A stretch of 64,000 bases of DNA from Cinnamomum chago (taxonomy: Eukaryota > Streptophyta > Magnoliopsida > Laurales > Lauraceae). Below the pieces are notes generated by a model that saw nothing but the letters and a program-made list of their open reading frames with translations, was not told the origin of the DNA and did no database searches. Location: assembly GCA_038049695.1 (NCBI GenBank), contig CP142452.1, positions 52,534,501-52,598,500 of the forward strand, read 5' to 3'. Of this stretch, positions 11,157 through 40,185 are shown in pieces (position 1 is the stretch's first letter; each line of letters begins with the position of its first letter). The position numbers and the translations under genes were made by a program.

Positions 11157-14100
11157 TGTAAGACCCCGACCCGAGTGAACCCGATTAGTGCTAATTAAGT
11201 TGCGTGTTAGTGCTAAGCTTGATTAGTGATTTCTGGTTAAGTTGGGTTTGGATTAGCTTTGATTATGGTTTCGGGCTAATTCGATTGTCTTGATTTGTTT
11301 TGGTAGCTTGTGGGGCCCTTTGGGGGTTCCCTTTTCGGCTTTGTATTTTCTCGAGGAATTTCCCGATTTATTGTGGATTATGTTTTTGGCCCGTTGCATG
11401 CATCTTGTAGATCTCAACAACTTTCATGTTAATCCCGTATTCAGTCGAGATCCCGAAACCCGATTTTCATAGCCTAAAGGGCAAAACAGTCATTGCACAC
11501 CAAGTCTGTACCCAAAACTCGATATCCCCGAAACCCGCGAAACATGTACCTTTTGGAAACTAGATATTTCGACGATCATTTCTTCCTTCTTCGTCGAACC
11601 CATCCGAGGTCCCGAAGTAGATGATTTCAGCTAATATAGTTCCTTAAGTTGTGGGACCCAAGCTCCCTTTGTTAACAAAAGAGAACCCATCTCTTCTTTC
11701 TCATTCACTCTCCATTCTTGTTCCAGCACCACTGAGCCTAGGGTTTGCTCTTGTGCTTTTCTTCTTCTTCTTCTTGTTTCTTCATCCCCAAGCCACACCT
11801 AGGGCTCATCAATCAAACATTGGAGATCACCAATCACTCCCTCATCTCTCAAGCTTTCCATTGGTACCATTTGTGAGGAGAACTCTCCATTCCAAGACCT
11901 TCATTGAGCTTACGATTGCCATTAGAGGACCTTCAAGGTAAGTGATCATTCTCATCTTCTAGATTTGTTGTCTCCTAGGCCATGAGGTACTACATTTGCA
12001 TTATTGTTGGTTTGTTCATTGTCATTCCTTGTGTAACCCATTTTAGGGTTGTTTTTGGGATTTTTGATTTGTAGCTTGGCTTTGAGCAATAGAGGTGATA
12101 AAAGGCTTGATTTCAACTAGCTTGGACTAGAGGCAAGTGGATGTTTTGATCTTTATAAGTTCCATGATTTTTTTTGGTGTTTTTCACTCATGTCTATTTA
12201 TTACATTGCTTTGACATAAATGTTCATAATGGAGCTTTGGTAGTGCATTCATGGTATTGCATTTATGACTTATAAGTGTAGTAATGAATGGCATTTAATT
12301 CTTCTCTTGTTTATACCCAAAGTACTCTATGGTGAAATGGTTTCCTTCTTTCTTTGTATGGAATGGGATGTTGATGAAGGAAGTGATGCATGAACAATTA
12401 TGGGAGCCTTGGGAGAAGTGTAATTAGATGCATTGGAGGAGCTTTTAGCTCAGTTTTGTGTCAAGGATTAAGTAAAAGTGAGGAGGATGGTTTTGAGGAG
12501 GAAAGTGACTCAAAAATCTGAACACAGCGGGTGATTCCCGCACTGGCGGTCAGCCTGCGGTCACCCGGCGGTTAGCCGCTTGGTGACTGGCGGCTAACCG
12601 CCAGCTAGCCGAAATGTCACGGTGGCTTTTCCAGAGAGCACACTTCTTCTCCTCAAAACTCAATCAGCTCCACGGTTGGCCAGCGGCTAACCGCCGAACA
12701 CATCAGCGGCTAACCGCCAGCTAACCGCACTTGGCGGTCAGCTTTCCAGTAAGCTGCATTTCTGCAGCCCAGCCGCGGTCAGCCAGTGGCTAGCCGCCCA
12801 TCCCAGCGGCGGCTAACCGCCAGGTAACCGAAATTCCCCAGATTTCGAAAAGCTCCCCGCTCGAACGAACTCTCCGGTTCGTTCGAGCGTTGAGCTTTGT
12901 CAATCGAAGGGGATTCACTAGGCATTGCTTGATGCCATCCGAGAAAGAAACCATATCACAAATATGTCATTCGAAATTTTGGAAAAATCGTAAGAGTGCA
13001 TAAGGAGCCCGGAATGTCTCAAAACTCAAAGAGTACCAAGTAAGGGCTATAATAGACATACGGGACCCCTATTCACTTAATTGGATTTCTAAATTGATAT
13101 TTTACCCGAATTTCATTATAGTGTATTTTTCACCTCATTCCCAGGAATTTCATCGCATGACTTGTTTTCTCGAAAGCTTTGGAGCTACAATAGTAACAGT
13201 GAATTGCCCCGAAATGTATTGCCCGATATGGAAAGACAGTGTGCCCTTGAGCACCCCCGTTTTACCGTTTATTTACTGTACTTGAATACTTGATATGCCT
13301 CGATTGGTTTTATCCTATGAGTCGGCATCACTAAGCTTGGATACCTTGTCAGTCTGATCCACTGACATGGAAATCCCTCTCCCGTCCCGCCAGCTGCAGT
13401 TTGGATCCCGATACCCGGTCTAATACAGTGGTCCCGTCCCGATACCCGGTTCCCTACCGTGGTCCCGTTCCCGTATAATTATATTGTATATATGTATACG
13501 TTGTTTCTCCTCACCTTGTGTGACAGAGATCAACGTCCCGTGATACTGTTGTCACTTTAGTGACAGAGGACTTAGCTTTATGTGATTGCCACCTTGTTAG
13601 TTCCCGAATCCTTGGATACCTGATATGTTTTATATTGTTTACTTGTTCATCGCAAATGATTTATCTATTTTATGAGAGTTCTTGCTTAACTCAGATTTAT
13701 ACGCTTCGCCAGAGATTTTCTTGTATTAGATATTGTTGTATCCTTGCTTTCTCTTGCCAGACCGTCGTGTCTGACCCTTTGCTTTGGTACTCAGGTCCCG
13801 TTGTCGGCTTCCTTGAGGAGGAGCCGGAGGAGGCGGTAGGCGCGCCGCAACCTCTAATCGAGTGGCTTGCTGACGATGTCATGTAGACATCAGATTGCTT
13901 TGAGAAGCGTAACATTTTGAGGGGAACTATTTAACCATTCTTTTGGGTTGTTGTTTTGTGTACATTGGCCTTTGTTGGCCTCTAATTTTGGGGAATGTAA
14001 CTAAATGATATTTTGTCTAACTTTAACAACCTTTGGAAACATGCTATAAATCATTGCTCATTCTGATACAGTATTTTAGTCTGGTGTTATTGTTTTTATG

Positions 14101-14760: not shown

Positions 14761-15700
14761 AGACTCATGAACAAAATCAAGGCAGAGCCCTACTTCCAGT
14801 GGCCAGAGCCAATGAAGGGTGATCCGTCCACCCGGAACCGAAGTAAGAACTGTTCCTGCCACAGGCAGCACGGGCACATGACTGAGGACTGCATGGCTCT
14901 GAAGTCCCACCTTGAAAGGCTCATCAAGGACGGGCACCTCCGGGAATACATCAAGGAGGAAGAAAGAGTCAACCAAGCTCAGCAGCATACCCCTCCCGGT
15001 GACGATCAGGATAGCGACGAGCCAGCAGGTATCATCAATGTCATTCACCTGGCTCCCCCTCCAAGTGAGGGAAGTGTCCAATCTCGGTCAAAGGCGAGGA
15101 AGGCTGCCCATGGCAAGCAGGTGATGTCAGCTGAGCTGGAGAGCGCACCAAAGAGGGCTACGAAGGAAAAGCCCAGGATCTGGTTCTCAGACGACGACCC
15201 GAGAGGGGTCCAGCTCCCCCACAACGATGCCCTCATCCTTACCCTGCGGCTCAACAATTATACTACGAAGCGCGTCCTTATATACCCAGGAAGCTCAGCC
15301 GAGATCATCTACTTTAGTTGTTTCAAGCAGCTCGGCCTGACCGAGTCCGATCTACAGGAAGCCCGCGTCCCTTTGATATGGTTCAGCGCCAAACCGGTAT
15401 ATCCCAAGGGAAGGATTTCGCTTGAAGTCCGGGTAGGGGGCTCTACGAAGAGGGCAGACTTTATGGTGGTAGAAGCACCGTCCCCGTACAATGTGATCCT
15501 GGGGCGAAGTTGGCTGCATGCCATGGAGGCAGTGCCCTCCACCCTCCACCAGAAACTCAAGTTCCCATTAGAGAAGGCTGGAGGAGCGGTCGAGATAGTG
15601 ACCGTGTGGGGAAATCAGCAGATGGCCAGGGAGTGCCTCATGGTCGTGGCACCCGGAGAGACGGAGCCAAAGCAGGTGCATATGGCCGACCTCGAGGCCG
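14761..15700 (+). pseudogene. Gag zinc-knuckle tail and aspartic protease of element F (active site lost)
   Basis: Continues the Gag frame after the TAG. Near 14845 the motif C-x-C-HRQHGH-x-TEDC is the atypical zinc knuckle of Tat Gag proteins. After an acidic linker the protease begins near 15226. Its flap and hydrophobic strands (ILTLRLNNY, VILGRSWL) are present, but the active site reads IYPGSSAEI where the family has IDPGSSAD. The catalytic Asp codon is TAC (Tyr) at 15283-15285, which should abolish cleavage of the polyprotein. The frame continues into RT without interruption. Confidence 0.85.
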
Positions 15701-16870
15701 AGATCGAAGATGTCGGGCGGACAGCGGGGCAGAAGAGCATAGAAGAGCTCACCGAGGTCAGAATAAATCCCGAAGACCCCGAACGCTACTTCCTATTGGG
15801 TAGCCAGCTCCCCGACAATGAGAAGGCCGAGCTACTGGACTTCCTACTGCAAAACAAAGACGTCTTCGCTTGGACTCCATATGAGATGCCCGGGATCGAC
15901 CCCGAGGTCATGTGTCACCAGTTGAATGTTAATCCCGGACACAAACCCGTAGTGCAGAAAGCCCGCAGAACAGGAGTTCCCCAAACAGAAGCAGTGATGG
16001 AAGAGGTGGATAAACTCCTTGAGGCCGGGGCAATCCGTGAAGTACACTATCCAGAGTGGCTAGCTAATACAGTAGTGGTAAAGAAGAAGAATGGCAAGTG
16101 GAGGGTCTGCGTGGACTTCACCGACCTCAACAAAGCCTGCCCCAAGGATAGCTTCCCCCTTCCAAAGATCGATCAGATGATCGACGCCACCTCGGGACAC
16201 GACAGAATGAGCTTCCTAGACGCATACCGAGGCTACCACCAGATCCCACTGCACAGGCCTGATGAGGAAAAAACAGCATTCATAACACCTCGGGGCATCT
16301 ACTGTTACAAGGTGATGCCCTTTGGGTTGAAAAATGCCGGTGCAACGTATCAGAGGCTGGTCACGAAGATGTTTCAGAACCAGCTCGGGAAAACGATGGA
16401 AGTCTACATTGATGACATGGTGGTCAAGTCCAAGGAGTCGTAGGACCATCTGACGGACCTACGCCAGACATTCGCCGTCCTCAGGAAGTTCCAACTCAAA
16501 CTAAATGCTTGAAAGTGTGTGTTTGGCGTCGGCTCTGGCAAGTTCCTAGGAAGCCTGGTGACCTGGAGGGGAATTGAAGCTAATCCGGAGCAGATTGCAG
16601 CTATCCAGGGTGTCCAGAGCCCGACCTCGGCCAAACAAGTCCAAAGACTCACGGGTATGGCTGCTGCACTAAATCGCTTCATCAGCCGAGCTTCGGACAA
16701 GTGTTGTCCTTTCTTTCAGCTCCTGAAGAAGAATTCCAAGTTTCAATGGACCCCTGAATGTGACTTGGCACTGGAAAAACTCAAGGAGTACCTCTCTTCA
16801 CCGCCACTATTGTCCACTCCATCACAAGGCGATCTTCCTATCTTTACCTCGCAGTCTCGGACCATGCAGT
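15701..16870 (+). pseudogene. Reverse transcriptase of element F
   Basis: RT spans roughly 15780-16760 in one frame. Landmarks include GAIREVHYPEWLANTVVVKKKNGKWRVCVDF, then FLDAYRGYHQI, MPFGLKNAGATYQR and the catalytic box YIDDM at 16405-16419 (both Asp present). Defects: TAG at 16441 soon after the box, TGA at 16510, and a frameshift near 16830-16850, where the frame ends in a stop while the true reading (LAVSDHAVSSVLVRE) continues in another frame. The enzyme would have copied element RNA from the tRNA primer at 8313. Confidence 0.9.
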
Positions 16871-17312
16871 GAGCTCGGTGTTAGTTCGAGAGAACGACAA
16901 GCAACAACACCCTATCTATTACACCAGCAAAACCATGCTCGACGCCGAGACCAGATATCTGCCACTCGAAAAGCTAGCATTGGCACTCATTAGCGCCTCT
17001 CGCAAGCTCTCCCATTACTTCCAGACACACACGGTGGTGGTCATCACGGAATTCCCACTCAAATCCCTTTTCCGCAAGGCGGACTTTTCTGGCCGAATCT
17101 CCAAGTGGGCCGTCGAACTGGGTCAATTCGATATCCAGTATCAACCCAGGACGGCAATCAAAGCACAAGTCATGGCGGATTTTATCGTTGAGTTCACCTC
17201 TCCAAGTTCGGCACCAACCTCACTCGATACCGAACTAGGGGGCGATAGGTGTATGAAGGCAGTAGAGCCCGAGGCCGAAGAAGACCGTTCTTGGGAGCAG
17301 TTCCTGAAGTAG
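16871..17312 (+). pseudogene. RNase H domain of element F (gypsy-type)
   Basis: The frame starting before 16869 reads SVLVRENDKQQHPIYYTSKTMLDAETRYLPLEKLALALISASRKL...HTVVVITEFPLKSLF, the usual gypsy RNase H core following RT. It goes on through FDIQYQPR and MADFIVEFT, the connection to the second RNase H. It ends at TAG 17310, which is in frame with the next domain. RNase H removes RNA from the RNA-DNA hybrid during reverse transcription. Confidence 0.85.
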
Positions 17313-17690
17313 GCCTGGAAGGTCTTTGTGGACCGATCCTCTACGTCCAAAAGGGCTGACGCCGGCATAGTCCTCCAGTCTCCAGAAGGCCTCGTCATCG
17401 AGCAAGCCCTGACCCTGGATTTCAAAGCCTCCAATAATGAAGCAGAATATGAAGCACTGATTGCAGGTCTCGGTAGCGCGAGAATACTGGGGGCACGTCA
17501 GTTAGTAGTCTTCAGCGACTCTCAGCTGGTGACAAACCAACTAAGCGGGGAATACCAAGCCCGAGATGAAAGGATGGCAGCCTACTTAGCCCACACAAAA
17601 CAGCTCCTCTCCCAGTTTGAGAAAGCGGAGGTGAGGCAAGTCGGTCCAACTGCCACGCAGACGCCCTGGCCAACTTGGCCTCGGCCGTAG
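17313..17690 (+). pseudogene. Second (archaeal-type) RNase H domain of element F
   Basis: After TAG 17310 the frame resumes as AWKVFVDRSS...AGIVLQSPEG...LDFKASNNEAEYEALIAGL...LVVFSDSQLVTNQLSGEYQARD. This is the additional archaeal-type RNase H that marks the Tat lineage: the first Asp (FVD), the Glu of NEAEYEAL and the Asp of FSDSQ are all present. The usual Gly after VD is Arg. Near 17645 a frameshift moves the end of the domain (HADALANLASA) into the next frame. Confidence 0.85.
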
Positions 17691-19019
17691 AAGCAGGGAA
17701 AAGGAGGACAATTGATGTGGAGGCATTGAAAAAACCAAGCATAGAGCTCCTCCCACCTCGGCAGGTCCTTTGCGTCAGCCTCGGTCCGAGCTGGATGGAT
17801 CCAATCACAGCATTCCTAAAGGAAGATAAACTCCCTGAAGACAGGAATGAAGCCCACAAGGTCAGAATGAAAGCAGCTCATTTTTTGCTATCCCCAGATA
17901 TGAAGCTCTACAGAAAGTCCTTCACAGAACCGTATCTCCAATGCGTTCACCCAAGCAAGGTGGAAGACTTCCTCTTTGAGATTCACGAAGGAATCTGTGG
18001 AAGCCACATCGGAGGAAGGTCACTGGCCTACAGAGCTATCAGCCAGGGCTATTGGTGGCCCTACATGCAGAAGGATGCCCAGCTCTACGCCAGAAAATGT
18101 GAAAAATGTCAGAAGTTCTCCCACTCCTTGCACCAGCCAGCTCAGGACCTAAGTCCTCTCTCCAGCCCATGGCCCTTCGCCCAGTGGGGACTGGACATCG
18201 TGGGTCCTCTTCACCGAACTCCAGGAAACAAAAGATGGTTGATGGTGGGTATTGATTACTTCACAAAATGGATAGAGGCTGAACCCTTATCCTCCATCAC
18301 CGAGCATGACACGAAGAATGAACATCGTCACAAGGTTCGGAATCCCCAGAGCACTGGTCTCGGACAACGAGACCCAATTCGATTCGAACTTCTTCAAAAA
18401 CTTCTGCCAGAAGCTCGGTATCAGGAACCTCTACCCAACTCCGGCCTACCCACAGAGCAATGGGCCAGCAGAAATCTCAAACAAAGTGGTATTGAACGGA
18501 CTGAAAAAGAGGCTTGATAAGGCTAAAGGCAGATGGGTGGAAGAACTACCAAGTGTTCTTTGGGCATACAGGACCACCCCGAGACGGTCCACTTCGGCAA
18601 CTCCTTTCTCTCTGGCACACGGAATGGAAGCCGTGATCCCTCTAGAAGTCGGTCTCCCGACCTTGAGGTCGGATCTCTTTGATTAGGGACAGAATGAAGT
18701 GAGCCTCGCCAAAGAGCTCGACCTGGCTGAGGAACGAAGAGAGGCGGCGTCAGTACGCTTGGCCTCTTACCAACAGCAATTATCCAAAGGGTACAATCAA
18801 ATGGTCAAAGAAAGGAGGTTCTCAGTTGGGGAACTCGTCTTAAAAAGGGCGCTTCCAGCAGATAAAGATCCTAACGAGGGCAAGCTCGCACCAAACTGGC
18901 TTGGCCCCTTCAAGTTTATCTCGGTCTCCGGGAGGTCGGCCTACAGACTGGAGAGCATGGATGGCAGAGAATTGCCCCGACCATGGAATGTTGCACACCT
19001 CAAGAAATATTACTTCTAG
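17650..19019 (+). pseudogene. Integrase of element F
   Basis: HHCC zinc domain at about 17975-18125 (FEIHEGICGSHIGG ... RKCEKCQKF). The catalytic core has the first Asp in WGLDIVGPL (18194-18196), the second in SDNETQFDS (near 18362) and Glu in NGPAEISN (18471-18473), so D-D-E is intact. The C-terminal domain ends GKLAPNWLGPFKF...YRLESMDG...WNVAHLKKYYF with TAG at 19017. A frameshift near 18300 separates the first Asp from the rest, and TAG at 18684 interrupts the C-terminal part. Integrase inserts the cDNA into chromosomes. Confidence 0.88.
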
Positions 19020-20085: not shown

Positions 20086-20690
20086 GTGGAAGATCAAAAG
20101 GTGTTGGAGATTCTGAATTGGATAGTGAATGTGTTCATCATCAAAGGAAAGAACTCAAATTCTCCATTAGAGTGTTAGGGATTTTGTATTTGCAATTTGA
20201 TGGATGCATTTGCATTTTCACATCATTTGAGTTCACACACTTGCTTTGATTTAAAATATCTTGAAATCTTGATTTAATACATGCATTGCTTTTAAAAGTG
20301 GTAAAAGTTTTGTTTTATGCATGTTTTGGTTTTATACTTGGATGCATTGTTTTTAGTATTCAAACTCTTTTGAAAACCTAATTCTTTGTGCTTTATATTT
20401 GGAAAATCATTTGAGAAGATAGGTTTGTGCATTGCATACTTTCATCATTTTCAGAATCATTTTTGTATGCATTGTTTTTGAAAAAGAGTTTTATCAAATC
20501 AAGCTAGCCTTTGGTTGTAAAGTTTCAAATCATTTTAGGCTCTTTGTGTTTCATGTTTTTAAACATCTTAGATTGATCTAAAACATGTTACCAAGCTTGA
20601 TTTAGTGGCCCAAAAATCCTCCCAAAGAAATACCTTCAAATGTGCAAAAGTTGGAAATTTTGCAAAAGGGGAGTGACCTGGCAGTGTCGC

Positions 20691-20830
20691 CGGTCGACCG
20701 AGACCTGCTTCCCGGTCGACCGGGACCACTGTCGGTCGAGTGGACAGTTTCTGAACTGTAACATGCCAACGGTCAGAAATATGACCGTTGTGCTTTCTCG
20801 GTCGACCGAGACCTGTGTCTAGGTCGACCG
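20691..20830. repeat. GGTCGACC palindrome cassette, LTRa of G
   Basis: Four CGGTCGACCG/AGGTCGACCG sites plus one GGTCGAGT variant lie directly upstream of TATATATAT at 20857-20865. A 60-codon ORF crosses the block in all three LTRs, but it merely reflects the repeat. Confidence 0.9.
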
Positions 20831-21024
20831 AGGACTAGCTGTTGGGCACTTTTTGCTATATATATGAGTTCTTTCCTTTGCCAAAAGTTGGGAATTTTAA
20901 GGCCCTCCTTGAGGGGTTTTGAGGCAAATAGAAGGGAAATGAACTAAGGGATGAAGGGTAGCATTAGGAAAGCTAAAACTTGGATTAATGAAGTTAAATC
21001 TCCAAGTAGGCTTTACTTTCCTTA

Positions 21025-21630
21025 ATCATATGTTTTCATGCTTTGTTTTATTTTTGGTAAATCATTTCTAGCATGTTAAACTATGTTTGTGTTGTGTCCT
21101 TAACATGTTTTATGTTTTGAGTTGATTTATTGTTTTGGATACAACACCATATGATTCAATCCAAGTAGTACTTAATCTTTGGTAAATCTAAGTAGATCAT
21201 GTTAATGAAAGAACCTTTGAAATTATATGTAACATGATTCCTATACTTGGTTGAATCTTTGGTTGTTGTTTTTCCATCATAAGAAAATCACTTTCAAAAC
21301 TATCTTATGTTTTGGACTCAACTTCTTTACAAATCATATGTTTTCATGTTTTGTTTTATCTTAGGTAAATCTTTAGCAACATGATAAACTATGATGTGTT
21401 GTATCCTTAGCATGTTCTATATTTTGAATTGATCTATTGTTTTGGATGCATCACCATTGATTCAATCCAAGTAGTACTTTATCTTTGGTAAATCTAAGTA
21501 GATCATGTTAATGAAATATGTAACATGATTCATATACTTGGTTGAATCTTTGGTTGTTGTTTTTCCATCATAAGAAAATCTCTTTCAAATGTATCTTATG
21601 TTTTGGATTCAACATCTTTACAAATCATAT
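21025..21630 (+). repeat. Tandem duplication of about 300 bp inside the G LTR
   Basis: Two consecutive units, each starting ATCATATGTTTTCATG (21025 and 21333), repeat the 'gattcaatccaagtagtact' and 'ggttgaatctttggttg' blocks. The same pair occurs in LTRb (from about 23475) and LTRc (from about 28788). Confidence 0.85.
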
Positions 21631-21635
21631 GTGTA

Positions 21636-22622
21636 GTTGAGGTTGGCTTCACGTTTGAATTTGATTTCACTCATTCTTGCACTTTAATAGTCATATTTAT
21701 TGTTTGAATGAAATGATTTTCAAAACTTACATAGCATATGATTTTCATAGTTATATTGATTGATGCTATGTTTAGTAAACCCCATTTCATCATGGATAGC
21801 TCTAATTTGGATGTTTCCTAATAGTTATATTTTTAAATCCATTTTAGAGTGATTGATTTAATAGTCTTATCCTTAAATCTCAATTGGTATTCTTTGTTTT
21901 TCCAATTGATATCCATGATTGCTTTTCCCATTGACCTTGCTTTCTTTTGGCAATTTGATCATATGAGCTTTATAGTTAAATGAATCTAATCATTTCCTTG
22001 AAGTTGACCCTCACTTGGTTAAACCATCTACTTCTTGAACCAAATAGTTATATCTTGTCAAATGTTTGACAAAAGAAGAGAATGGATTGAGGGGGAGTGT
22101 AAACCTTCATAGGAAGTATTAGTTTTGATCAAATTGACCCTTGGATTGCCTTTGAGCCCTTAGAGACTACTTCCATACATGATAGCCTGTTATGTATTTC
22201 ATTTTCGATTTCATTTGTTAACAGGTGCTACTAAAGGTATTTTCCTTATTTCATGTGTGTAGGTACCTTTGCAATTTAATGTCAAAGGGGGAGAGAGTTC
22301 GAGTACTCAAAGATCTCCTATTCTTCAAAGGGGGAGAGTACCAAAGGGAGAAAGAGGCATGGTCAAAGGGGGAGAGCAAATAGAAGAAAGAAAGCTTGGA
22401 GCTAAAGAAAATGCTTGGTCATAAAGAGGAAGATGAATAGAAAGCTTGAAGTTTGATCAAGCACCAAGCATCAAGAAGATTGAAGAAAAGAGCCCAAGAG
22501 CCCAAGCTAAGAGAAGGAGCATCCAAGAAGATTTCAAGACTTGTCCAGCTTAGGGGGAGCTGAAGACTAAGTGTGTAATTTCTATGTTGAGTAAGTTGCC
22601 ATCAAATTGCAAAGGGGGAGAT
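21636..22622 (+). other. 3' part of G internal region (first, truncated unit)
   Basis: Matches 26948-27935 apart from its left end, which is fused directly to LTRa with a TA overlap. So the first unit of the array has lost the 3' end of its LTR, its PBS and the 5' two-thirds of its internal region. No ORF seen. Confidence 0.85.
22270..22622 (+). promoter_or_regulatory. Cluster of polypurine-tract-like sites before LTRb
   Basis: CAAAGGGGGAGA or close forms occur near 22283, 22317, 22364, 22549 and finally at 22611-22622 next to the LTR. The last is the expected plus-strand primer; the others may serve as extra priming sites. The same cluster precedes LTRc at 27597-27935. Confidence 0.65.
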
Positions 22623-23140
22623 TGTTAGGGATTTTGTATTTGCAATTTGATGGATGCATTTGCATTTTCACATCATTTGAATTCACACACTTGCTTTGAT
22701 TTAAAATATCTTGAAATCTTGATTTAATACATGCATTGCTTTTAAAAGTGGTAAAAGTTTTGTTTTATGCATGTTTTGGTTTTATACTTGGATGCATTGT
22801 TTTTAGTATTCAAACTCTTTTGAAAACCTAATTCTTTGTGCTTTATATTTGGAAAATCATTTGAGAAGATAGGTTTGTGCATTGCATACTTTCATCATTT
22901 TCAGAATCATTTTTGTATGCATTGTTTTTGAAAAAGAGTTTTATCAAATCAAGCTAGCCTTTGGTTGTAAAGTTTCAAATCATTTTAGGCTCTTTGTGTT
23001 TCATGTTTTTAAACATCTTAGATTGATCTAAAACATGTTACCAAGCTTGATTTAGTGGCCCAAAAATCCTCCCAAAGAAATACCTTCAAATGTGCAAAAG
23101 TTGGAAATTTTGCAAAAGGGGAGTGACCTGGCAGTGTCGC

Positions 23141-23280
23141 CGGTCGACCGAGACCTGCTTCCCGGTCGACCGGGACCACTGTCGGTCGAGTGGACAGTTT
23201 CTGAACTGTAACATGCCAACGGTCAGAAATATGACCGTTGTGCTTTCTCGGTCGACCGAGACCTGTGTCTAGGTCGACCG
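23141..23280. repeat. GGTCGACC palindrome cassette, LTRb of G
   Basis: Same block as in LTRa, here in the intact middle LTR, directly upstream of its TATA sequence. Confidence 0.9.
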
Positions 23281-24968
23281 AGGACTAGCTGTTGGGCACT
23301 TTTTGCTATATATATGAGTTCTTTCCTTTACCAAAAGTTGGGAATTTTAAGGCCCTCCTTGAGGGGTTTTGAGGCAAATAGAAGGGAAATGAACTAAGGG
23401 ATGAAGGGGAGCATTAGGAAAGCTAAAGCTTGGATTAATGAAGTTAAATCTCCAAGTAGGCTTTACTTTCCTTAATCATATGTTTTCATGCTTTGTTTTA
23501 TTTTTGGTAAATCATTTCTAGCATGTTAAACTATGTTTGTGTTGTGTCCTTAACATGTTTTATGTTTTGAGTTGATTTATTGTTTTGGATACAACACCAT
23601 ATGATTCAATCCAAGTAGTACTTAATCTTTGGTAAATCTAAGTAGATCATGTTAATGAAAGAACCTTTGAAATTATATGTAACATGATTCCTATACTTGG
23701 TTGAATCTTTGGTTGTTGTTTTTCCATCATAAGAAAATCACTTTCAAAACTATCTTATGTTTTGGACTCAACTTCTTTACAAATCATATGTTTTCATGTT
23801 TTGTTTTATCTTAGGTAAATCTTTAGCAACATGATAAACTATGATGTGTTGTATCCTTAGCATGTTCTATATTTTGAATTGATCTATTGTTTTGGATGCA
23901 TCACCATTGATTCAATCCAAGTAGTACTTTATCTTTGGTAAATCTAAGTAGATCATGTTAATGAAATATGTAACATGATTCATATACTTGGTTGAATCTT
24001 TGGTTGTTGTTTTTCCATCATAAGAAAATCTCTTTCAAATGTATCTTATGTTTTGGATTCAACATCTTTACAAATCATATGTGTATTATTGTTTTAAAGT
24101 TTCACAACTTGCCTTACTTTGATAGGAATATCACTTTCAAGTTGTATTTATAATTACATATGATTTGTCCCCTCTTTTCAATCAAATCTATTTTTATGTT
24201 TTGAGCTACATGTTGATTTGATTGACATCCCTATGCTTCACATGTTTAGAGCTAATTAATTTCATACAACTTGTAAATCTTTGATCTCATTAACAAGTTG
24301 TTACTTTTAACATGTGATTAGCATTTCCTCAATCATAAATGTTTTTGAGCTAAAACTTTCAAAAGCCTTAGGCATACATTTATGAGCTTTCATTTTCAAA
24401 ATGATTGAGGACCACACACACACACTTCATGTACTTTCATCTTTGCATTCATAGTGTGAGTGTGTATTAGTTTTTCACTTCCATATCCGCCTAATTAAGA
24501 GGCATTGTAATGAGCTTAATAGAATCTCCATCAAGTGTATGTTAGACACTAATTTAGTGAGATAACCAACCTATGGTTGAAGAGGTTATTGCTTAGCCTA
24601 TAAAAGCATAGTGTATAGGTTGATGTTAAGCCTTGAAAAACATCATTGTAAAGGTTATTGCTAAGCCTTGGAAAGCATATTGTAAAGGTTATTGCTTAGC
24701 CTATTGAAAAGCATAAATAGCGGAAATCCGGTGGGGTGTTGGTTCACAAGATGGTAGTGGATGTAGGCATTGAGGCCGAACCACTATAAATACTTGTGTG
24801 ATGGTGATTGCTTTGTGGTGATTCTTTTGTTAGCTTCCGCATCTTGTATGATTAATCATCACTTGTGACTAGTTTGTTTTAAAGAAGTTAAATTTGTTAA
24901 AATTGGTCATAATTGGAGCTCACCCTATTCACCCCCCTCTAGGGTTTGGATCCCCATGGACTTACAAG

Positions 24969-24979
24969 TGGTATCAGAG
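24969..24979 (+). promoter_or_regulatory. Primer-binding site of G
   Basis: TGGTATCAGAG two bases after the LTRb end (...CTTACA at 24966). It is complementary to the 3' end of initiator tRNA-Met, the usual primer of plant copia and many gypsy elements. Confidence 0.9.
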
Positions 24980-25112
24980 AGGGTTACTCCATTTTAGGGC
25001 TTAACAACCCGGAGTTGATCCTTGCTAGATTAGAACCCTAGTGTTGTGATTTATTGCATATCTTTTTGATGATTTCCACTATGATTGAAAATGAATTTCC
25101 CTAGCCTCATTG

Positions 25113-27370
25113 CACCACTCTTAGTCTTTTTCAAGTTATATCTTTAAGAGTTGGTGAGTCCTCAAAGTGTTCTCTCAAGGACATCCTTTTCAAGACCTTA
25201 GGTGAATCTTCATTGGTACACATTTAGACTAGCCTTAAGGCCTTGATCCTCCCTAGACCAACCTATTCTTTTTAGTTATATCTATTTGTTGGTCTTGTTA
25301 CATTTGCATTTTGTTGCTTTATAGTCACATCTTTTAAAATGCAATGTTTCTTTGTGATCATTTGATTTTGTATTCATGAACTTCTAAGTTATATCTCATG
25401 GTTTTCAAAATCCTTTGATTGCAATACTTTCATGATGGATTTGCATTTTGTTCAAATAGTTATATCTCTTGTAATGCTTATCTATTCATGATCAATTGAT
25501 TATGATTGCAAATGCTTTCATAGCTAGTTTTTTCATGATCAATTGATGTTGGAAAATCATTTGATGTTTGTCATAGTTAGATCCTTTTTGTAAATCAAAT
25601 GATTTGAATCTATTTAAGTTTTCCATTGTTTTTCAAAGTTATATCTCTTGGTATGGAAACTTTGTGAGTGTCTATTGTTTTACAATTTGAAAATTTTACA
25701 ATAGTACACTCCTTGTTTTTCAAATTCACTTGCTCTTAATTCTAAATGATTCTTTATTGGAATTTCATATATTGAAGTGATTTGAGAAACTTTGGAAAAT
25801 GTTCTAAGCTTTATTGGTTGTATTTATAGAAGCATTTTCCTTGAATCTATTTCCTTGTGCCTATTTATGATTATATCATTTGGAAGGAAATATTTTTTTT
25901 TTACAAACAATTTGCATCTTTGCTCATTTAGTTACATTCTTTATGCAAATTGATTTTGATGTCTTACATTGCTTGGTTGGATATGGTTTCATTGATTTGC
26001 ATGTTTGTGCCTAACTTGGTATATTCTCATTAATGCATTTTAATGATTGTTTATGTGCTTTATAGTAAAATCTTGTTTTTGAGCTTTTTAAGTACATATG
26101 TGATTTTATGTGCTAAGTTCATTTGGTTTAAACCTCATATCCATTGTCCATTGCATTGTAAGCTTAGTACATTTGCTAAGAGTGGAGATGTTGCATGATA
26201 GATTGCTACCCTTAACTTCATACCTTCTTGTGCTTAAATAGTTATATTCTTTTTTGATGATTGGTATGAGTTAGATCTTGAGTGTGATTGATCCTCTCTA
26301 TGCAAATGTCAAATCGTTCTATGTATGGTTGTGTTATTTATTACTTTTGTAGAAACCATACTAGAACTAAAATCCATCCTCTATGCTCTCTAGTCATATC
26401 TTTTTGGATGGTTATGATGTTGATTCATGTAGATTCTCTTGGTATCATCCTTATACATGTTTCAACTTCATAAGTAGTGATCTTAATCATATGAAACTCT
26501 TTGAAATCCATTCCTTGCATTTATGATGGTTGATGGATATCTTAGTAGTTGAATTCATATGATTTAGTCACTTTGGAAATTGCATGCATTTCAAAGTTAT
26601 ATAATTTTGCATTGCAATTTACCTTGTTCATCACTATGCTTATTAGTTATATCTTTAAAAGTGATAAATATGCATTTATGATGCTTGATGGAACTTTGTG
26701 TTTGCCACATTCTTGCTCTTTATCATGTTATCAAATTCAATTGGTTTCAATTGGTAAAATTTTCAATTGATTTGATTTCTTGTGAATGTGATAAACCATG
26801 TGTACATTGGTTTGAACTTGATAGTTATACATTTGTTCCATGTCACACACCATTAGCATCATAATTTTCATGTTGCTACCTTCCTTGCTCTTATAGGTAT
26901 ATCTCATGACCACCATGTTTATGTGTTCATAATAGTGGTTGGTTATTAGTTGAGGTTGGCTTCACGTTTGAATTTGATTTCACTCATTCTTGCACTTTAA
27001 TAGTCATATTTATTGTTTGAATGAAATGATTTTCAAAACTTACATAGCATATGATTTTCATAGTTATATTGATTGATGCTATGTTTAGTAAACCCCATTT
27101 CATCATGGATAGCTCTAATTTGGATGTTTCCTAATAGTTATATTTTTAAATCCATTTTAGAGTGATTGATTTAATAGTCTTATCCTTAAATCTCAATTGG
27201 TATTCTTTGTTTTTCCAATTGATATCCATGATTGCTTTTCCCATTGACCTTGCTTTCTTTTGGCAATTTGATCATATGAGCTTTATAGTTAAATGAATCT
27301 AATCATTTCCTTGAAGTTGACCCTCACTTGGTTAAACCATCTACTTCTTGAACCAAATAGTTATATCTTG
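25113..27370 (+). repeat. Array of stem-loops with conserved AGTTATATCT loop motif (G internal)
   Basis: About 23 occurrences of AGTTATATCT or near variants (AGTCACATCT, AGTTACATTC, AGTCATATCT) lie 50-180 bp apart. Most sit between inverted arms that differ from module to module. Examples of arm pairs: 25255-25262/25288-25295 (8 bp perfect), 25554-25565/25594-25605 (12 bp perfect), 25616-25626/25653-25662, 25794-25801/25833-25840 (8 perfect), 25849-25856/25884-25891 (8 perfect), 25908-25917/25943-25952 (10 perfect), 26218-26224/26263-26269 (7 perfect), 26577-26587/26609-26620, 27042-27050/27076-27084 (9 perfect), 27114-27125/27150-27161. The motif always lies in the loop. No ORF is present. 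Function unknown; a protein-binding or packaging role is a hypothesis. Confidence 0.8.
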
Positions 27371-28453
27371 TCAAATGTTTGACAAAAGAAGAGAATGGAT
27401 TGAGGGGGAGTGTAAACCTTCATAGGAAGTATTAGTTTTGATCAAATTGACCCTTGGATTGCCTTTGAGCCCTTAGAGACTACTTCCATACATGATAGCC
27501 TGTTATGTATTTCATTTTCGATTTCATTTGTTAACAGGTGCTACTAAAGGTATTTTCCTTATTTCATGTGTGTAGGTACCTTTGCAATTTAATGTCAAAG
27601 GGGGAGAGAGTTCGAGTACTCAAAGATCTCCTATTCTTCAAAGGGGGAGAGTACCAAAGGGAGAAAGAGGCATGGTCAAAGGGGGAGAGCAAATAGAAGA
27701 AAGAAAGCTTGGAGCTAAAGAAAATGCTTGGTCATAAAGAGGAAGATGAATAGAAAGCTTGAAGTTTGATCAAGCACCAAGCATCAAGAAGATTGAAGAA
27801 AAGAGCCCAAGAGCCCAAGCTAAGAGAAGGAGCATCCAAGAAGATTTCAAGACTTGTCCAGCTTAGGGGGAGCTGAAGACTAAGTGTGTAATTTCTATGT
27901 TGAGTAAGTTGCCATCAAATTGCAAAGGGGGAGATTGTTAGGGATTTTGTATTTGCAATTTGATGGATGCATTTGCATTTTCACATCATTTGAATTCACA
28001 CACTTGCTTTGATTTAAAATATCTTGAAATCTTGATTTAATACATGCATTGCTTTTAAAAGTGGTAAAAGTTTTGTTTTATGCATGTTTTGGTTTTATAC
28101 TTGGATGCATTGTTTTTAGTATTCAAACTCTTTTGAAAACCTAATTCTTTGTGCTTTATATTTGGAAAATCATTTGAGAAGATAGGTTTGTGCATTGCAT
28201 ACTTTCATCATTTTCAGAATCATTTTTGTATGCATTGTTTTTGAAAAAGAGTTTTATCAAATCAAGCTAGCCTTTGGTTGTAAAGTTTCAAATCATTTTA
28301 GGCTCTTTGTGTTTCATGTTTTTAAACATCTTAGATTGATCTAAAACATGTTACCAAGCTTGATTTAGTGGCCCAAAAATCCTCCCAAAGAAATACCTTC
28401 AAATGTGCAAAAGTTGGAAATTTTGCAAAAGGGGAGTGACCTGGCAGTGTCGC

Positions 28454-28593
28454 CGGTCGACCGAGACCTGCTTCCCGGTCGACCGGGACCACTGTCGGTC
28501 GAGTGGACAGTTTCTGAACTGTAACATGCCAACGGTCAGAAATATGACCGTTGTGCTTTCTCGGTCGACCGAGACCTGTGTCTAGGTCGACCG
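28454..28593. repeat. GGTCGACC palindrome cassette, LTRc of G
   Basis: Third copy of the block seen at 20691 and 23141, with TATATATAT following about 25 bp downstream. Confidence 0.9.
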
Positions 28594-31213
28594 AGGACTA
28601 GCTGTTGGGCACTTTTTGCTATATATATGAGTTCTTTCCTTTGCCAAAAGTTGGGAATTTTAAGGCCCTCCTTGAGGGGTTTTGAGGCAAATAGAAGGGA
28701 AATGAACTAAGGGATGAAGGGGAGCATTAGGAAAGCTAAAGCTTGGATTAATGAAGTTAAATCTCCAAGTAGGCTTTACTTTCCTTAATCATATGTTTTC
28801 ATGCTTTGTTTTATTTTTGGTAAATCATTTCTAGCATGTTAAACTATGTTTGTGTTGTGTCCTTAACATGTTTTATGTTTTGAGTTGATTTATTGTTTTG
28901 GATACAACACCATATGATTCAATCCAAGTAGTACTTAATCTTTGGTAAATCTAAGTAGATCATGTTAATGAAAGAACCTTTGAAATTATATGTAACATGA
29001 TTCCTATACTTGGTTGAATCTTTGGTTGTTGTTTTTCCATCATAAGAAAATCACTTTCAAAACTATCTTATGTTTTGGACTCAACTTCTTTACAAATCAT
29101 ATGTTTTCATGTTTTGTTTTATCTTAGGTAAATCTTTAGCAACATGATAAACTATGATGTGTTGTATCCTTAGCATGTTCTATATTTTGAATTGATCTAT
29201 TGTTTTGGATGCATCACCATTGATTCAATCCAAGTAGTACTTTATCTTTGGTAAATCTAAGTAGATCATGTTAATGAAATATGTAACATGATTCATATAC
29301 TTGGTTGAATCTTTGGTTGTTGTTTTTCCATCATAAGAAAATCTCTTTCAAATGTATCTTATGTTTTGGATTCAACATCTTTACAAATCATATGTGTATT
29401 ATTGTTTTAAAGTTTCACAACTTGCCTTACTTTGATAGGAATATCACTTTCAAGTTGTATTTATAATTACATATGATTTGTCCCCTCTTTTCAATCAAAT
29501 CTATTTTTATGTTTTGAGCTACATGTTGATTTGATTGACATCCCTATGCTTCACATGTTTAGAGCTAATTAATTTCATACAACTTGTAAATCTTTGATCT
29601 CATTAACAAGTTGTTACTTTTAACATGTGATTAGCATTTCCTCAATCATAAATGTTTTTGAGCTAAAACTTTCAAAAGCCTTAGGCATACATTTATGAGC
29701 TTTCATTTTCAAAATGATTGAGGACCACACACACACACTTCATGTACTTTCATCTTTGCATTCATAGTGTGAGTGTGTATTAGTTTTTCACTTCCATATC
29801 CGCCTAATTAAGAGGCATTGTAATGAGCTTAATAGAATCTCCATCAAGTGTATGTTAGACACTAATTTAGTGAGATAACCAACCTATGGTTGAAGAGGTT
29901 ATTGCTTAGCCTATAAAAGCATAGTGTATAGGTTGATGTTAAGCCTTGAAAAACATCATTGTAAAGGTTATTGCTAAGCCTTGGAAAGCATATTGTAAAG
30001 GTTATTGCTTAGCCTATTGAAAAGCATAAATAGCGGAAATCCGGTGGGGTGTTGGTTCACAAGCCGGTAGTGGATGTAGGCATTGAGGCCGAACCACTAT
30101 AAATACTTGTGTGATGGTGATTGCTTTGTGGTGATTCTTTTGTTAGCTTCCGCATCTTGTATGATTAATCATCACTTGTGACTAGTTTGTTTTAAAGAAG
30201 TTAAATTTGTTAAAATTGGTCATAATTGGAGCTCACCCTATTCACCCCCCCTCTAGGGTTCGGATCCCCATGGACTTACATAGAGAACTACAAAGCTCCA
30301 AAGGTATATCTACATCCTTGTATGCTGTAGATTTCGTGGTTGCATGTTGATGTGTTGTTTTCTATCTTTTAGATAGTATATATTGCTGTACATGATTTAT
30401 GATTTTGAGAGATTGCATCCTGGATTGGGTTTGTTCCCTTCTAGATTATTGATCCCTGCATCAAGTGGGTCAAAACTTTTTGAAACCTGTCTGGAAGGCC
30501 CACCTATATTCCAATATTCTTCACAAATGGTATCAATGGGTAGCCTTCAAGATGAGGAAGAGAATGATGAACTCTATTTTGATGTTGGTGCAAGTTTGGT
30601 GGGAGATTGAGATGGAGAGAGCAAGAAGAAGAAGAGAAAAGTTGCAAGAAACCCTAGGTTCAAGTGTTGTACTGGAATAGGGAAATGGAAGATGGGTTTT
30701 CCTTATATAAGCAATGAGAATGGGCCCCACCACTTAAGAAACTCTTTGGGCTGAAATCATGTCTTTCGAGATCTCGAATGAATTCGACAAAGAAGGAAGA
30801 AATGATCACCAAAATATCTAGTTTCCAAAAAATATATGTTTCACGGGTTTCGGGGATATCAAGTTTTAGGTACAGATTTGGTGTAAAAAGACTGTTTTTC
30901 CCTCAAGGATAGGAAATCAGGTTTCGGGGTCTCGAACGGAAATGGGATCAACATGAAAGTTGTCGGGATTAACGAGACAAATATTACGGGATAAAAACAC
31001 AAATCAAAACAATTCCGAAAATTCCCCCAAGTAAACGCAAAGTCATAAAAGGAACCCTCAAAGGGCCCACTAGTCACCAAAGCACTCAAAATTCCCCAAA
31101 ACTATATCAAAAGTTATTCCTAACCAAACTTAGTCAAAGACTACTAATCACGCTTAAGACTAACACATGACTTAATTAACACTAATCGGGTTCACTCCGG
31201 TCGGGGTGTTACA

Positions 31214-33650: not shown

Positions 33651-34650
33651 GTACAAGGAACGGGAAACAACATAACAATAACTGAATTTACCATGGAAAA
33701 TATTAACACCTGTTTAAATAATAACTTTCATAAAAGAAATGAATCATTTACCGGAAAACAAATAAGCAATATAGGGTATCCAAGGAATCGGGAACTAGCA
33801 AGATGGCAACCACACGAAGCTGAGTCCTCTATCACTAAAGTGACAGAGCAATAACTAGGCACTGATCTCAGTCACTCGAGGTGAGGAGAAACAGTGAATC
33901 TCATAAATACATATACATATACTAGGCACTGATCTCAGTCACTCGAGGTGAGGAGAAACAGTGGATCTCATAAATACATATACTATACATGACCACTGTA
34001 GCGAGCCGGGCATCGGGAACCACAGTAGCAATCTGCGGCATCGGGACAAGACCACGGTAATAATCGGGTAGCGGGATCCAAACTGTAGCTGGCGGGACAA
34101 GAGGGGGATCTCCAAGTGGGTGGATCAGACCAACAGGGTTATCCAAGCTTAGTTGTGCCGACTAATAGGTCAAATAATAAATCGAGACATATGCAAGTAA
34201 ATCAAGTACAATAAATAAATGGGCAAGACGAGGGTGCTCAAGGGTACACTGTCATTTCATGTGGTGCAATGCACTTCGAGTCAAGTAACCATTTCAAGTG
34301 TACATCAATGCTTTCGGGAAAACAAGACATGTATTATAAATCTCGGGATCAATAAGGTACAATAAACAATTGGAATTTTGGGTTCAAGATCTATTTGAAG
34401 TGAATAAGGACTCCGTATGTCAATCTAATAAAAATCTGGTATTCTTTGAGTTTGGGGACATTCCGGACTCCTTATACACTCCGAACTTTCAAAACTTCAA
34501 ATGACATCCGCGTGATATGGTTTCTTTCTCAAATGGCCTCATACATTGCTTAGTAAATCTCCTTGACATAGAGGGGTTCCCAATGAATAGTCCCAATACG
34601 TTGAAATAGTTCATCATTGTCCCAAACATGGCCTTTAACCAACAAAGCTC

Positions 34651-34913
34651 ATCGCTAGAGCGAACCGGAGAGTTCGCTCAGTTCGCTCGAGCGAGGAGCT
34701 ATCTGGAATGGTTGTCTGGGTGGGTTCGCTCGAGCGAAGTTGAGGTCGCTGTAGCTAACTCATTGGGTCAAGCGAAGTTTTTAGTGCGCTCGAACGAACG
34801 ACTCTCTGGAACAGATTCTGGGATGTCCGCTCGAGCGACCAAGCTACTGGAATGCTCCGAACCCTTTTCTGGACACTTCGCTCGAGCGAAGTGTCATGTT
34901 CGCTCGAGCGAAC
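34651..34913. repeat. CGCTCGAGCGAAC palindrome cassette in the B solo LTR
   Basis: Repeated TTCGCTCGAGCGAA-type palindromes. The block and its flanks (for example 'gctactggaatgctccgaac') match the cassette of LTR A4 at 57721-58013, although A and B are different LTR families. Confidence 0.9.
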
Positions 34914-36463
34914 TGTCCAGAAACTGATTCCGGACCAGTTCAGCTCCTCTCTATCTCTTCCTTCTACAACCTCTTTTTAGCCACTTTTATACATCAAATG
35001 AGGAGTCTAAAACTTCATTCAAATAACATCAAATCTTTCACCACATCCATCCCATTCTCCTCCATCAATATCACATTCAATACAAGGAAAGAAAGAAGGT
35101 AACCATTACACACAAGAGTACATTTGAGATAAAACAAGGGAAAATTAAATGCTATGAACCAATACATCTCTATGACAATAAATGCACTATCAAGGCTCTT
35201 CATGAGCATTCATTTCAAGTCAAAGTAATAAATAAGCATGTATGGAAAAACAATAAAATCAACCACATTTCTATAAAACCATATGAACAAACTTTGACCA
35301 AATAAAATGCATACATTTCCAAGAGACTTAACAAGAGAGAAAGACCCATTAATATGCATTTTCGAAATCAATAGAAATGTGGCAAGAAGCATATGTGAAA
35401 ACATGTATCAAATTATCAAGAACAAGCAATAAAATTTAGGATTTTCTCATCAAACTTGATGACATTCAAACCATCCATTTATCCACTTGCCTTGGGTTCC
35501 AATTAGCTAATCAAGCTCTCCAAACATTCTCAAGCAACCCTACAAGCAAGCCAAAAACCCCCAAAAACAAACCCATTTAGAACCCTAAAATGGCAATTCA
35601 AGAAAGACAAGGAATGGGCTCAAACCAAACTAGGAAATAGAACTTAAGGGAAAGTCATAGCTCAACAATAGAAGATGGAAAGAAGTCCTTACCTCTAGGG
35701 CCATTAATCAACAAGAAGAAGCTTGAAATAGGGGCTGCCCACCTTGGTTTTGCACAAAAATAACATCCATGGGAAGCTAGAGAGATGGGGAATAAGATGG
35801 CATGGTTGAGTTTCCAAATGGAAAGGGTTTCCCCCATGAATGGGGAGGAGAAAACAAGAAGAAAAGGGAGGAGAAGCTCAGTTGCAAAGCTCCCCCTTTG
35901 GGCTGCAATGAATGAGTAAGAAGAGGGGAGAGTTATCTTTTTATAATGAGTGGGTGTGGGCCCCACCACACTTAAAACTTGCCAAGGGTAAAACATCAAT
36001 TTCTGGGCCTCGGATGCAATCGACGAAGAAGAGGAAAATGTTTCTCATAAAATCTAGTTTTCAAAAAGTATAATTTTTGCATGGTTCTAGGATCTCGAAA
36101 TTTGGGTCCAGATTTGGTGTGAAAAGACTGTTTTGCTCCTAACATTAGGAAAGTAGGGTTTTGGGGTCTCGAACGGGAACGAAGTCAACACGAAAGTTGT
36201 AGAGGTTAACAAAATAAGTCAAACGAGACCAAAACAAGAATTATCAAAAATTTTGAATAATCTCCCAATCACGCGCAAGGTCATTAAAAGAACCCCCAAA
36301 GGGTCCCACTAATCACAAAGGCACTCAAAACACCCCAAAACTAGTGAAAAACCATTCTAGCTCACAAGCTCAGCCCAACAAACACTAATCCCACTAAAAT
36401 AAACTAATCCACAAATAAAACAACACTAATCCAGGAAATTAGGGGTCGGGTTCTCACAGGCTC

Positions 36464-38150: not shown

Positions 38151-38358
38151 AAAATCCAAAACGCGAATCCAACTCCCTCATGTCATTTTCAAAACTTTGC
38201 CTTGAGATGGTACGTGATCCCTCTCAGTACCATAAAATCCCCTTGGAAACTCAAAAGGCTATAAAATAAATGCTCAAAGACTCTTGGTCAAGTCAGAAGC
38301 TCTCCTTCAAGTTTCTCTTTAAGGCACATCGACTCCAAAAGCTAATCATCGATGTACC

Positions 38359-38371
38359 TCAAAGGGGCATT
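38359..38371 (+). promoter_or_regulatory. Polypurine tract of element K
   Basis: TCAAAGGGGCATT lies immediately before TGTTGACAC, a common plant gypsy LTR start. It fixes K in plus orientation. Confidence 0.8.
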
Positions 38372-38518
38372 TGTTGACACAAAAAAAAAGTCACTTTGCC
38401 TCTTTAACATTAAGAAGTCACATGAAGCCGCGTCCTACCACAAAACAAGCATTGCTGCTTCAAGCATCAGATCCTGTCAGAATCAAACAAAAACTGCAAG
38501 ATCCTTCAAGACAGCCAA

Positions 38519-39170
38519 AAAAGGGGTTCACATGAAGTTTCGGGTCATTCCAACATCATTTGACCCCCCCAACTTCACTCCTCCGACAGCCAAACAGGCG
38601 CTTTTGGAGGTGACGGCGTCGAAGACATCAAAACTTCGATCAGAGCCTACGGATGGTCTCAAAATACCTCCAAAGGGCTCCATGTCAAATTTCAAGTCAA
38701 ACCGACAACGTTTGACCCTCCATCAACTCTCGAGCAGTAAAATCAAGCCTCTCGGCGGTGAGAACCACCGAGGCCATCACTCATCAAACGGAGCACATGG
38801 GCACCTTCAACATTCTTCCAAAGGGTTGCACGTCAAATTTCAGGTCATTTCGACAATGTTTGACCCGACTTTGACCCTCCGAAACAAAATCAAGGCTACT
38901 AGCGACGGAGCACCCCGAGACCATGACATCCAAATCGGAGCCAACGGATCATCTCAAAATGACTCCAATAGGCTCCCTGTCAAATTTCAAGTCAATCGGA
39001 CATCGATTGACCGCACATCAAAGCGCGGCATCTTCCTCGAGGCAAAATCAAGCCTACTGGCGACGGGACCCCACACGGCTTCAAAGCTCAAACAAAAGCC
39101 CATGGTTGGTCCTATCTACTTCTAAGAAGGCTTCACCTCAAATTTCAGGTCATTTCGATATCTTTTGTTC
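38519..39170 (+). repeat. Tandem repeat of about 150 bp in K LTR
   Basis: The phrase 'tcaaatttcaagtcaxxxcgacaxcgtttgacc' recurs near 38530, 38685, 38832, 38980 and 39138, spaced 147-158 bp. Between the repeats lie variable CG-rich segments. Confidence 0.8.
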
Positions 39171-39387
39171 TAGTTTCGACTCTTGACGGAAAATCGGTTA
39201 CAAAGTCTTCGGCTTTTCCAAAAAAATAGGAAACTTTGTGCCCCGATTTTTACGGCTTCTCATCAGATTTTCTTCAGGAGAATCAAACCAGTAAATGAGG
39301 AGAAATGTCAAGAAAAATGCAAGAGAAAACGGCGTCGAAAAAGACTAAAGAACGACCGAGAAACGGCGACCAAAAGGGGAGAAATCA

Positions 39388-40178: not shown

Positions 40179-40185
40179 TATAAAA
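40179..40185 (+). promoter_or_regulatory. Putative TATA box of K LTR
   Basis: TATAAAA in the context 'aagcctataaaatgaggg', about 680 bp before the LTR end. Confidence 0.6.

Follow-up and report, generated by a model that had tools for sequence, protein, structure and literature searches.

A hairpin array with a common loop motif and module-specific stems in the internal region of a seemingly non-autonomous LTR retrotransposon

How gene-less LTR elements are recognized by their helpers is, to our knowledge, an open question. It is raised by a locus of Cinnamomum chago, lying within a 64,000-nucleotide stretch of DNA that was analysed as a whole (the window), in which an array of hairpins stands at the usual gag-pol place of an LTR retrotransposon, here called element G. 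What does this array consist of, and what might its hairpins do?

Architecture and coding content of element G

Element G is an LTR retrotransposon arranged as a directly repeated block, i.e., a truncated LTR (A) with a partial internal region, a second LTR (B), a full internal region and a third LTR (C). The LTRs span TG to CA, and a single 5-base target-site duplication, TAGAG, brackets the whole block (20168-30285). The features of the block, in window positions, are the following.

20168..20172, + strand: target-site duplication TAGAG, left
20173..21633, + strand: LTR A, truncated, fused directly to internal sequence matching 26947 onwards (junction 21633/21634)
21634..22622, + strand: partial internal region of unit A, with 0 differences from 26947-27935
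22623..24966, + strand: LTR B (TG...CA)
24969..24979, + strand: primer binding site TGGTATCAGAG, at the start of the internal region
25113..27394, + strand: hairpin array in the usual place of gag-pol; 32 hairpins by motif-blind tiling
27400..27935, + strand: 3' segment rich in purines, containing several tracts of the AAAGGGGGAG type; the last adjoins the 3' LTR (polypurine tract)
27936..30280, + strand: LTR C (TG...CA), hairpin-rich
30281..30285, + strand: target-site duplication TAGAG, right

The primer binding site is one that we take to belong to the initiator methionine tRNA. LTR A differs from LTR B at 4 and from LTR C at 3 of 1461 positions, LTRs B and C differ at 5 of ~2345 positions (one difference being an indel), and the 989-base internal stretch common to both units is identical. 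Given LTRs so nearly identical and an identical internal stretch, the insertion must be young, and the copies of element G within the window (99.7-99.9% identical) are therefore uninformative on compensatory change. Close to the LTR end there is also a 34-base tandem repeat of 3.8 copies, at 24583-24715 and 29896-30028.

A preliminary description of this DNA had held that the internal region is without an ORF, and this was borne out. The longest stop-to-stop frame in 24967-27935 has 74 codons. Eighteen frames in that interval reach 45 codons; five of them were scanned with Pfam and yielded no match above the curated cut-off, the two weak matches seen (E 0.54 and 0.027) each falling under its cut-off. 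A protein-coding array was ruled out on these two grounds, i.e., the lack of any frame above 74 codons and of any Pfam match above cut-off in the five frames scanned, no coding remnant having been found by either. Element G seems to be a non-autonomous LTR retrotransposon.

Two further identities were considered for the array. A known RNA family was rejected, the window matching nothing in Rfam at gathering scores, as was an ordinary tandem repeat, Tandem Repeats Finder listing none within the array. In a search for relatives by exact LTR-boundary patterns, two patterns were unmatched in viral contigs and one in prokaryote contigs, where a plant element is not expected. In the neighbouring interval 14767-18517, reverse transcriptase and integrase zinc-binding domains occur in two frames; for the first frame (Gypsy), the best two of 120 listed relatives were from Persea americana, with 66 and 62% identity.

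Hairpins, loop motif and arms

The description of the internal region as an array of stem-loops was confirmed, and the hairpin array is real and far beyond chance. Motif-blind hairpin tiling of the array gave 275.5 with wobble pairs allowed, compared with 118±14.6 in shuffles, and 217.5 compared with 89±14.5 when only Watson-Crick pairs were admitted. Span-limited RNA folding of the + strand gave -497 kcal/mol against -374±12.7 in shuffles (z -9.7, and z -11.3 without G·U), with z -8.3 and -9.9, with and without G·U, for the - strand. A Gypsy coding stretch, folded in the same way as a control, gave z values between -0.01 and -2.0. When 20 modules were folded singly, 17 had z values of -1.5 or below and three were near zero (25616, 26625 and 26799). 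Elsewhere in the window, the 80-base windows of 38352-40500 fold better than their shuffles, with a mean z of -1.12 on one strand and -1.17 on the other, and surpass those of the array in this.

The loops of the array range from 14 to 38 bases in size. Of the 32 Watson-Crick hairpins found by tiling, 22 held a motif with up to three mismatches wholly inside the loop, as opposed to 4.2 of 24.1 in shuffles; the other ten did not. The hairpin modules and the form of the motif in each are given below.

25113..25156, + strand: hairpin, 11 bp with one bulge, loop containing AGTTATATCT at 25134
25255..25295, + strand: hairpin, 8 bp, AGTTATATCT at 25274
25300..25347, + strand: hairpin of 12 bp containing a single bulge, AGTCACATCT at 25323
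25435..25485, + strand: hairpin with internal loops, AGTTATATCT at 25458
25554..25605, + strand: hairpin, 12/12 bp, AGTTAGATCC at 25575
25616..25662, + strand: hairpin of 10 bp containing a single bulge, AGTTATATCT at 25637; not better than shuffles in energy (z -0.18)
25794..25840, + strand: hairpin of 13 bp containing a single bulge, motif degenerate (GGTTGTATTT at 25816)
25848..25892, + strand: hairpin, 9 bp, degenerate motif GATTATATCA at 25869
25905..25956, + strand: hairpin, 10/10 bp core, AGTTACATTC at 25930
26212..26274, + strand: long-looped hairpin of 12 bp containing a single bulge, AGTTATATTC at 26240
26374..26411, + strand: hairpin, 6 bp, AGTCATATCT at 26392
26577..26620, + strand: hairpin of 12 bp containing a single bulge, AGTTATATAA at 26595
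26625..26670, + strand: hairpin, ~10 bp, AGTTATATCT at 26645; energy no better than shuffles (z -0.31)
26730..26776, + strand: hairpin of 13 bp containing a single bulge, motif degenerate (TGGTAAAATT at 26752)
26799..26849, + strand: bulged hairpin of 11 bp, AGTTATACAT at 26823; not better than shuffles in energy (z +0.45)
26977..27027, + strand: hairpin, AGTCATATTT at 27002
27042..27084, + strand: hairpin, 9/9 bp, AGTTATATTG at 27062
27108..27168, + strand: hairpin with internal loops, AGTTATATTT at 27136 (z -3.4)

On the + strand of 25113-27370, AGTTATATCT occurs seven times exactly, 11 times with at most one mismatch and 19 times with at most two, the corresponding means over 200 local dinucleotide shuffles being 0, 0.28 and 3.7. 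The - strand of the same interval has no exact match, none with at most one mismatch and eight with at most two; since AGTTATATCT is near-palindromic, some 2-mismatch matches on that strand are expected. Expectation-maximisation (EM) lists 34 motif sites at a posterior above 0.3. The count of around 23 copies previously given is reached when 3-mismatch variants are included, as among the 34 EM sites, but the plain count with at most three mismatches (37, compared with 28.1, sd 4.9, in shuffles) is not clearly above chance. The motif keeps one orientation, with 11 sites on the + strand versus none on the - strand at one mismatch or fewer, and 36 versus six by weight matrix (PWM).

For alignment, 23 anchors were chosen by eye from the 34 EM sites after the hairpins had been seen; 11 sites were dropped, six of them with a posterior of at least 0.9, and three were kept at 0.69-0.83. 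When these 23 were aligned on the motif, identity between modules extended over columns -10 to +12, i.e., ~23 bases or about the length of a loop, with mean identities of 0.43, 0.74 and 0.46 in the three parts of the loop, conservation figures from picked anchors being biased upward at the motif itself. Two core columns were invariant across the 23 sites, which had been selected by that core. Identity in the arm zones of the same anchors was at chance (0.290 and 0.296, compared with 0.306 by composition), and MAFFT applied to ten modules aligned the loops and not the arms. The computed ensemble leaves the motif less paired than its comparison set, 356 overlapping 10-mers similar in composition (0.60 versus 0.39). 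Loop-loop kissing through the near-palindromic motif was rejected, there being no covariation (self-pairs 2.70, compared with 2.67±0.05 with columns shuffled).

That the stems differ from module to module, with each left arm fitting its own right arm, was evaluated by finding the best Watson-Crick stem round each motif and then exchanging right arms among modules, which preserves composition exactly. Over all 34 EM sites, own arms scored 14.8 and swapped arms 9.0 (z 9.5, none of 50000 permutations as good), in agreement with the preliminary description, whose six perfect arm pairs are all present in the sequence. The 19 sites with at most two mismatches gave 17.6 and 9.7 (z 8.3, 0 of 50000), the 11 with at most one gave z 5.1 (0 of 50000), and the seven exact sites gave z 4.5, with 11 of 50000 permutations equally good. 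A Watson-Crick stem score of at least 16 was reached at 18 of the 34 EM sites, 15 of the 19, 8 of the 11 and 6 of the 7, and by 5.5, 7.6, 5.5 and 4.8% of swapped arms in the same four sets. Under two looser scorings of the 19 sites, z was 3.7 and 5.2.

The 23 picked anchors behaved similarly (z 9.9), 18 of them scoring at least 16, compared with 8.1% of swapped pairs; the five below 16 are at 26064, 26895, 27176, 27287 and 27359. When the halves of the array were taken apart, z was 5.7 for 11 of these anchors and 5.9 for the other 12. The arm signal is centred on the motif, being lost within ~12 bases of anchor shift and returning near 50-60 bases, the module spacing, and inverted arms scored 18.1, as against 7.0 for a mirror repeat and 11.5 for a reversed right arm. 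The motif lies towards the 3' side of the loop, as had been proposed: a closing pair 7-15 bases before and 1-8 bases after the motif gave z 9.9 with the range so imposed, and a wider range gave 8.0. Shuffled sequences, the control that had been suggested for the arm pairs, held far fewer motif-centred pairs and motifs than the array.

Matching arms were also counted elsewhere in the window. In a joint search for motif and arms, with a weight matrix whose training on the array favours the array in the site count (36) and leaves the share with matching arms as the fair figure, arms matched at 20 of 36 sites in the array, three of eight on the + strand of LTR C and nine of 222 outside element G (both strands). 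Among sites with at most two mismatches, the corresponding figures were 15 of 19 in the array, 9 of 23 on the + strand of the rest of element G, where repeated LTR copies are counted separately, and 8 of 58 outside it.

Proposed loop display and the competing explanations

Modules that have a loop in common, and arms that are complementary yet unrelated, leave two explanations: selection keeps the loop on display, or the arms are rewritten by some process to which the loops are not subject. Our tentative preference is for the first: the array may be a multivalent loop-display scaffold in the RNA of element G, perhaps for a helper Gag. On this reading, some 25-32 short hairpins occupy the place of gag and pol in the internal region, most of them presenting the same single-stranded loop of ~23 bases with its core AGTTATATCT towards the 3' side. 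The stem would merely display the loop, and its sequence could vary provided that both arms match. The string of hairpins would form a multivalent platform on which one single-strand-binding protein finds many similar, individually weak sites. That protein would most likely be the Gag or nucleocapsid supplied by an autonomous helper, and through it the RNA of element G would be packaged in preference to host mRNA. Gag would be the likeliest ligand because a gene-less LTR element must be packaged in trans and, by analogy, because viruses with dispersed packaging signals share such a design (PMC6281560, in its accessible part). Template switching, in reverse transcription or in replication, would perhaps create and repair the arms, with selection acting on the loop; reverse transcription would offer opportunities for such switching.

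We infer selection on the loop, action in RNA, a protein ligand, packaging and template switching alike. The fuller proposal, that genes have been wholly replaced by a repeated RNA ligand capturing a helper Gag many times, its stems renewed by template switching in reverse transcription and its loop kept, which would make it the counterpart among retrotransposons of dispersed packaging signals, is doubtful and somewhat unlikely as a whole. The array gives a concrete candidate for helper recognition, i.e., one loop displayed about two dozen times on free-standing modules of ~40-60 bases. The array would, in addition, amount to a natural experiment on the renewal of RNA stems, the arms being unrelated between modules and the loop common.

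Several observations count against loop display. Blind 80-base windows of the array had a mean z of only -0.69, similar to that of the - strand and the LTR and weaker than that at 38352-40500, and three of the singly folded modules were near zero. Stems that had drifted in RNA through compensatory changes would be expected to contain many G·U pairs, yet no sign of a G·U preference was seen in 18 good stems, in which G·U is no commoner than chance mismatches. Watson-Crick pairs fill 234 of 260 scored positions; the mismatches, few in number, are 4 G·T, 3 A·C and 19 of other kinds. Isolated mismatches in the tiles divide into 4 each of G·T and A·C for the array, and 3 and 1 for the LTR. When one pair class at a time was tolerated, z was 7.6 for G·T, 7.2 for C·T (the placebo), 9.7 for A·C and 9.6 for A·G; because C·T lowers z equally, the drop with G·T can be attributed largely to the T-rich sequence and is read only as an absent G·U signal.

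The LTRs are as dense in hairpins as the array, a point absent from the preliminary description. Their tiling gave 230, compared with 96±11.6 in shuffles, mostly without the motif, so hairpin density is untied to the loop site, which also counts against loop display. In 1-kb tiles, all ten between 20 and 30 kb had z values of 3.3-8.9; elsewhere 9 of 53 exceeded 3 (up to 5.7), the rest lying between -2.0 and 2.9. No convincing common loop motif was found within the LTR, a shuffle having outscored the real sequence at one width. Hairpin richness thus appears to be a trait of the element, and the loop motif mainly internal. The earlier suggestion of a repeated RNA site accordingly stands in part: a shared loop with free stems fits a repeated single-strand binding site, but the missing G·U preference and the equally dense LTR hairpins count against stems kept by selection in RNA. 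Two LTR hairpins have a layout similar to that of the array modules.

29092..29165, + strand: LTR hairpin, related loop AGGTAAATCT at 29126, 20/21 pairs; its diverged duplicate at 28787-28850 has one C-G to T-A double change
29417..29458, + strand: LTR hairpin, related loop AGGAATATCA at 29437, 8/8 bp

The LTR also holds a diverged duplication of ~310 bases (28787-29104 and 29095-29412, 86% identity). Eight pairs are changed among its nine hairpins: three pass between A-T and G·T, four break to T·T, and one is a double change from C-G to T-A, with no A·C. The pair changes in this duplication lean towards wobble tolerance.

As a separate observation, GC-rich palindromic words (around GTCGAC, GGCTAACC and CTCGAG) form clusters, often as inverted pairs, that differ by place, in the LTRs and elsewhere in the window.

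Palindromic-word clusters: 28453-28486 and 28560-28595 (with copies in LTR A and B); 54784-54957; 12565-12829; 49547-49764; 61125-61293; 34646-34920; 57781-57987
Palindromic-word cluster, by word count alone: 3652-3824

Partly homologous elements seem to carry different palindromic words, and these may be a candidate variable palindromic cassette.

The explanation that competes best with loop display is a neutral origin, in which an old tandem repeat of a hairpin unit keeps having its arms remade by polymerase template switching, so that they fit within units and not between them, with nothing bound; we consider it rather unlikely. Stems that are almost purely Watson-Crick (the 234 of 260 positions above) would be expected of it, as would LTRs of the same element that are equally dense in hairpins without a convincing common loop, and template switching, which may have made the array stems, is reported to create and maintain perfect hairpins (PMC8794818, accessible portion). 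However, a neutral repeat should not retain a 10-base core while the sequence past the loop is at chance. The motifs also hold one orientation, though template switching can invert spacers (PMC8604942, as far as its available text extends), an argument that is weak for loops of 14-38 bases since the inversion concerns short spacers only. The excess of both 5'G-C3' and 5'U-A3' pairs that marks intrastrand switching is, moreover, absent as a whole: the counts are 39 versus 52 and 111 versus 92 in the array (p 0.21 each), and 36 versus 66 (p 0.004, in the opposite direction) and 86 versus 97 in the LTR, so that only 5'T-A3' in the array leans that way.

A site acting at the DNA level strikes us as distinctly unlikely. 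It would take the form of cruciforms in integrated DNA, which the preliminary description also named, or of folded single-stranded cDNA, and its ligand would be integrase, the replication machinery or a chromatin protein of the host. Watson-Crick pairing without an excess of G·T is what such a site would show, and the - strand folds nearly as far from shuffles as the + strand (z -8.3/-9.9 versus -9.7/-11.3). On the other hand, a cruciform site does not need its loops in one orientation, and extrusion from duplex DNA is costly with long loops and AT-rich stems; both points leave single-stranded cDNA untouched. A host-directed decoy, whose loops would occupy a host RNA-binding or silencing factor or stabilize the untranslated RNA with no link to a helper Gag, is improbable: many similar sites per transcript would be sponge-like and stems of 6-15 bp are short for Dicer substrates, but the window has no Rfam match at gathering scores, Rfam being the only route by which host factors were looked up.

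Comparison with known systems

Retrozymes are marked by a hammerhead ribozyme; element G was rejected as one, no hammerhead match being present in the window (Rfam, gathering scores). Dispersed packaging signals, of which STNV and parechovirus provide further examples, have small loops in viruses, whereas the loops of element G are larger (14-38 bases) and its sites fill a region without a coding remnant. The viral protein is moreover known, whereas that of element G is putative. As in element G, the dispersed packaging signals of RNA viruses, MS2 and others, consist of many stem-loops on one RNA whose sequences vary round a common recognition motif (PMC6281560, from the part available).

Perfect arms like those of element G can be produced by template switching in one step, without wobble intermediates (PMC8794818, same portion), but this process predicts no shared loop in one orientation, and its pair bias is absent as a whole here. 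The tandem arrays of TRIM/Cassandra elements have the LTR-internal-LTR-internal-LTR layout also seen in element G (PMC7215508, in the text accessible); element G differs from them in lacking a 5S domain (no Rfam match at gathering scores) and in the length of its LTRs, 2.3 kb where theirs are short.

Dependence on helper proteins is assumed for LARDs and TRIMs, whose RNA secondary structures are described as well conserved, and a LARD such as Sukkula is, like element G, an LTR element with a sizeable internal domain without coding capacity (PMC7215508, in the same text). LTRs, a primer binding site, a polypurine tract and a target-site duplication are all present in element G, as is a large internal domain without gag, pol or env coding (longest frame 74 codons; five of 18 frames scanned with Pfam). 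A further LARD trait is an internal domain conserved between copies and species; the copies of element G compared here are those in the window, which are near-identical. A periodic hairpin array with one loop motif and module-specific stems is a feature of element G that does not appear in the accessible text of PMC7215508. No report of a gene-less LTR element combined with dispersed shared-motif stem-loops was found in one open-access library, a scope outside which older subscription-journal papers on LARDs fall. Gene-less LTR elements with structured RNA (LARD and TRIM; PMC7215508, accessible text) and dispersed shared-motif stem-loops in viruses are already known separately. We class element G as LARD-like, with an internal architecture that is new.
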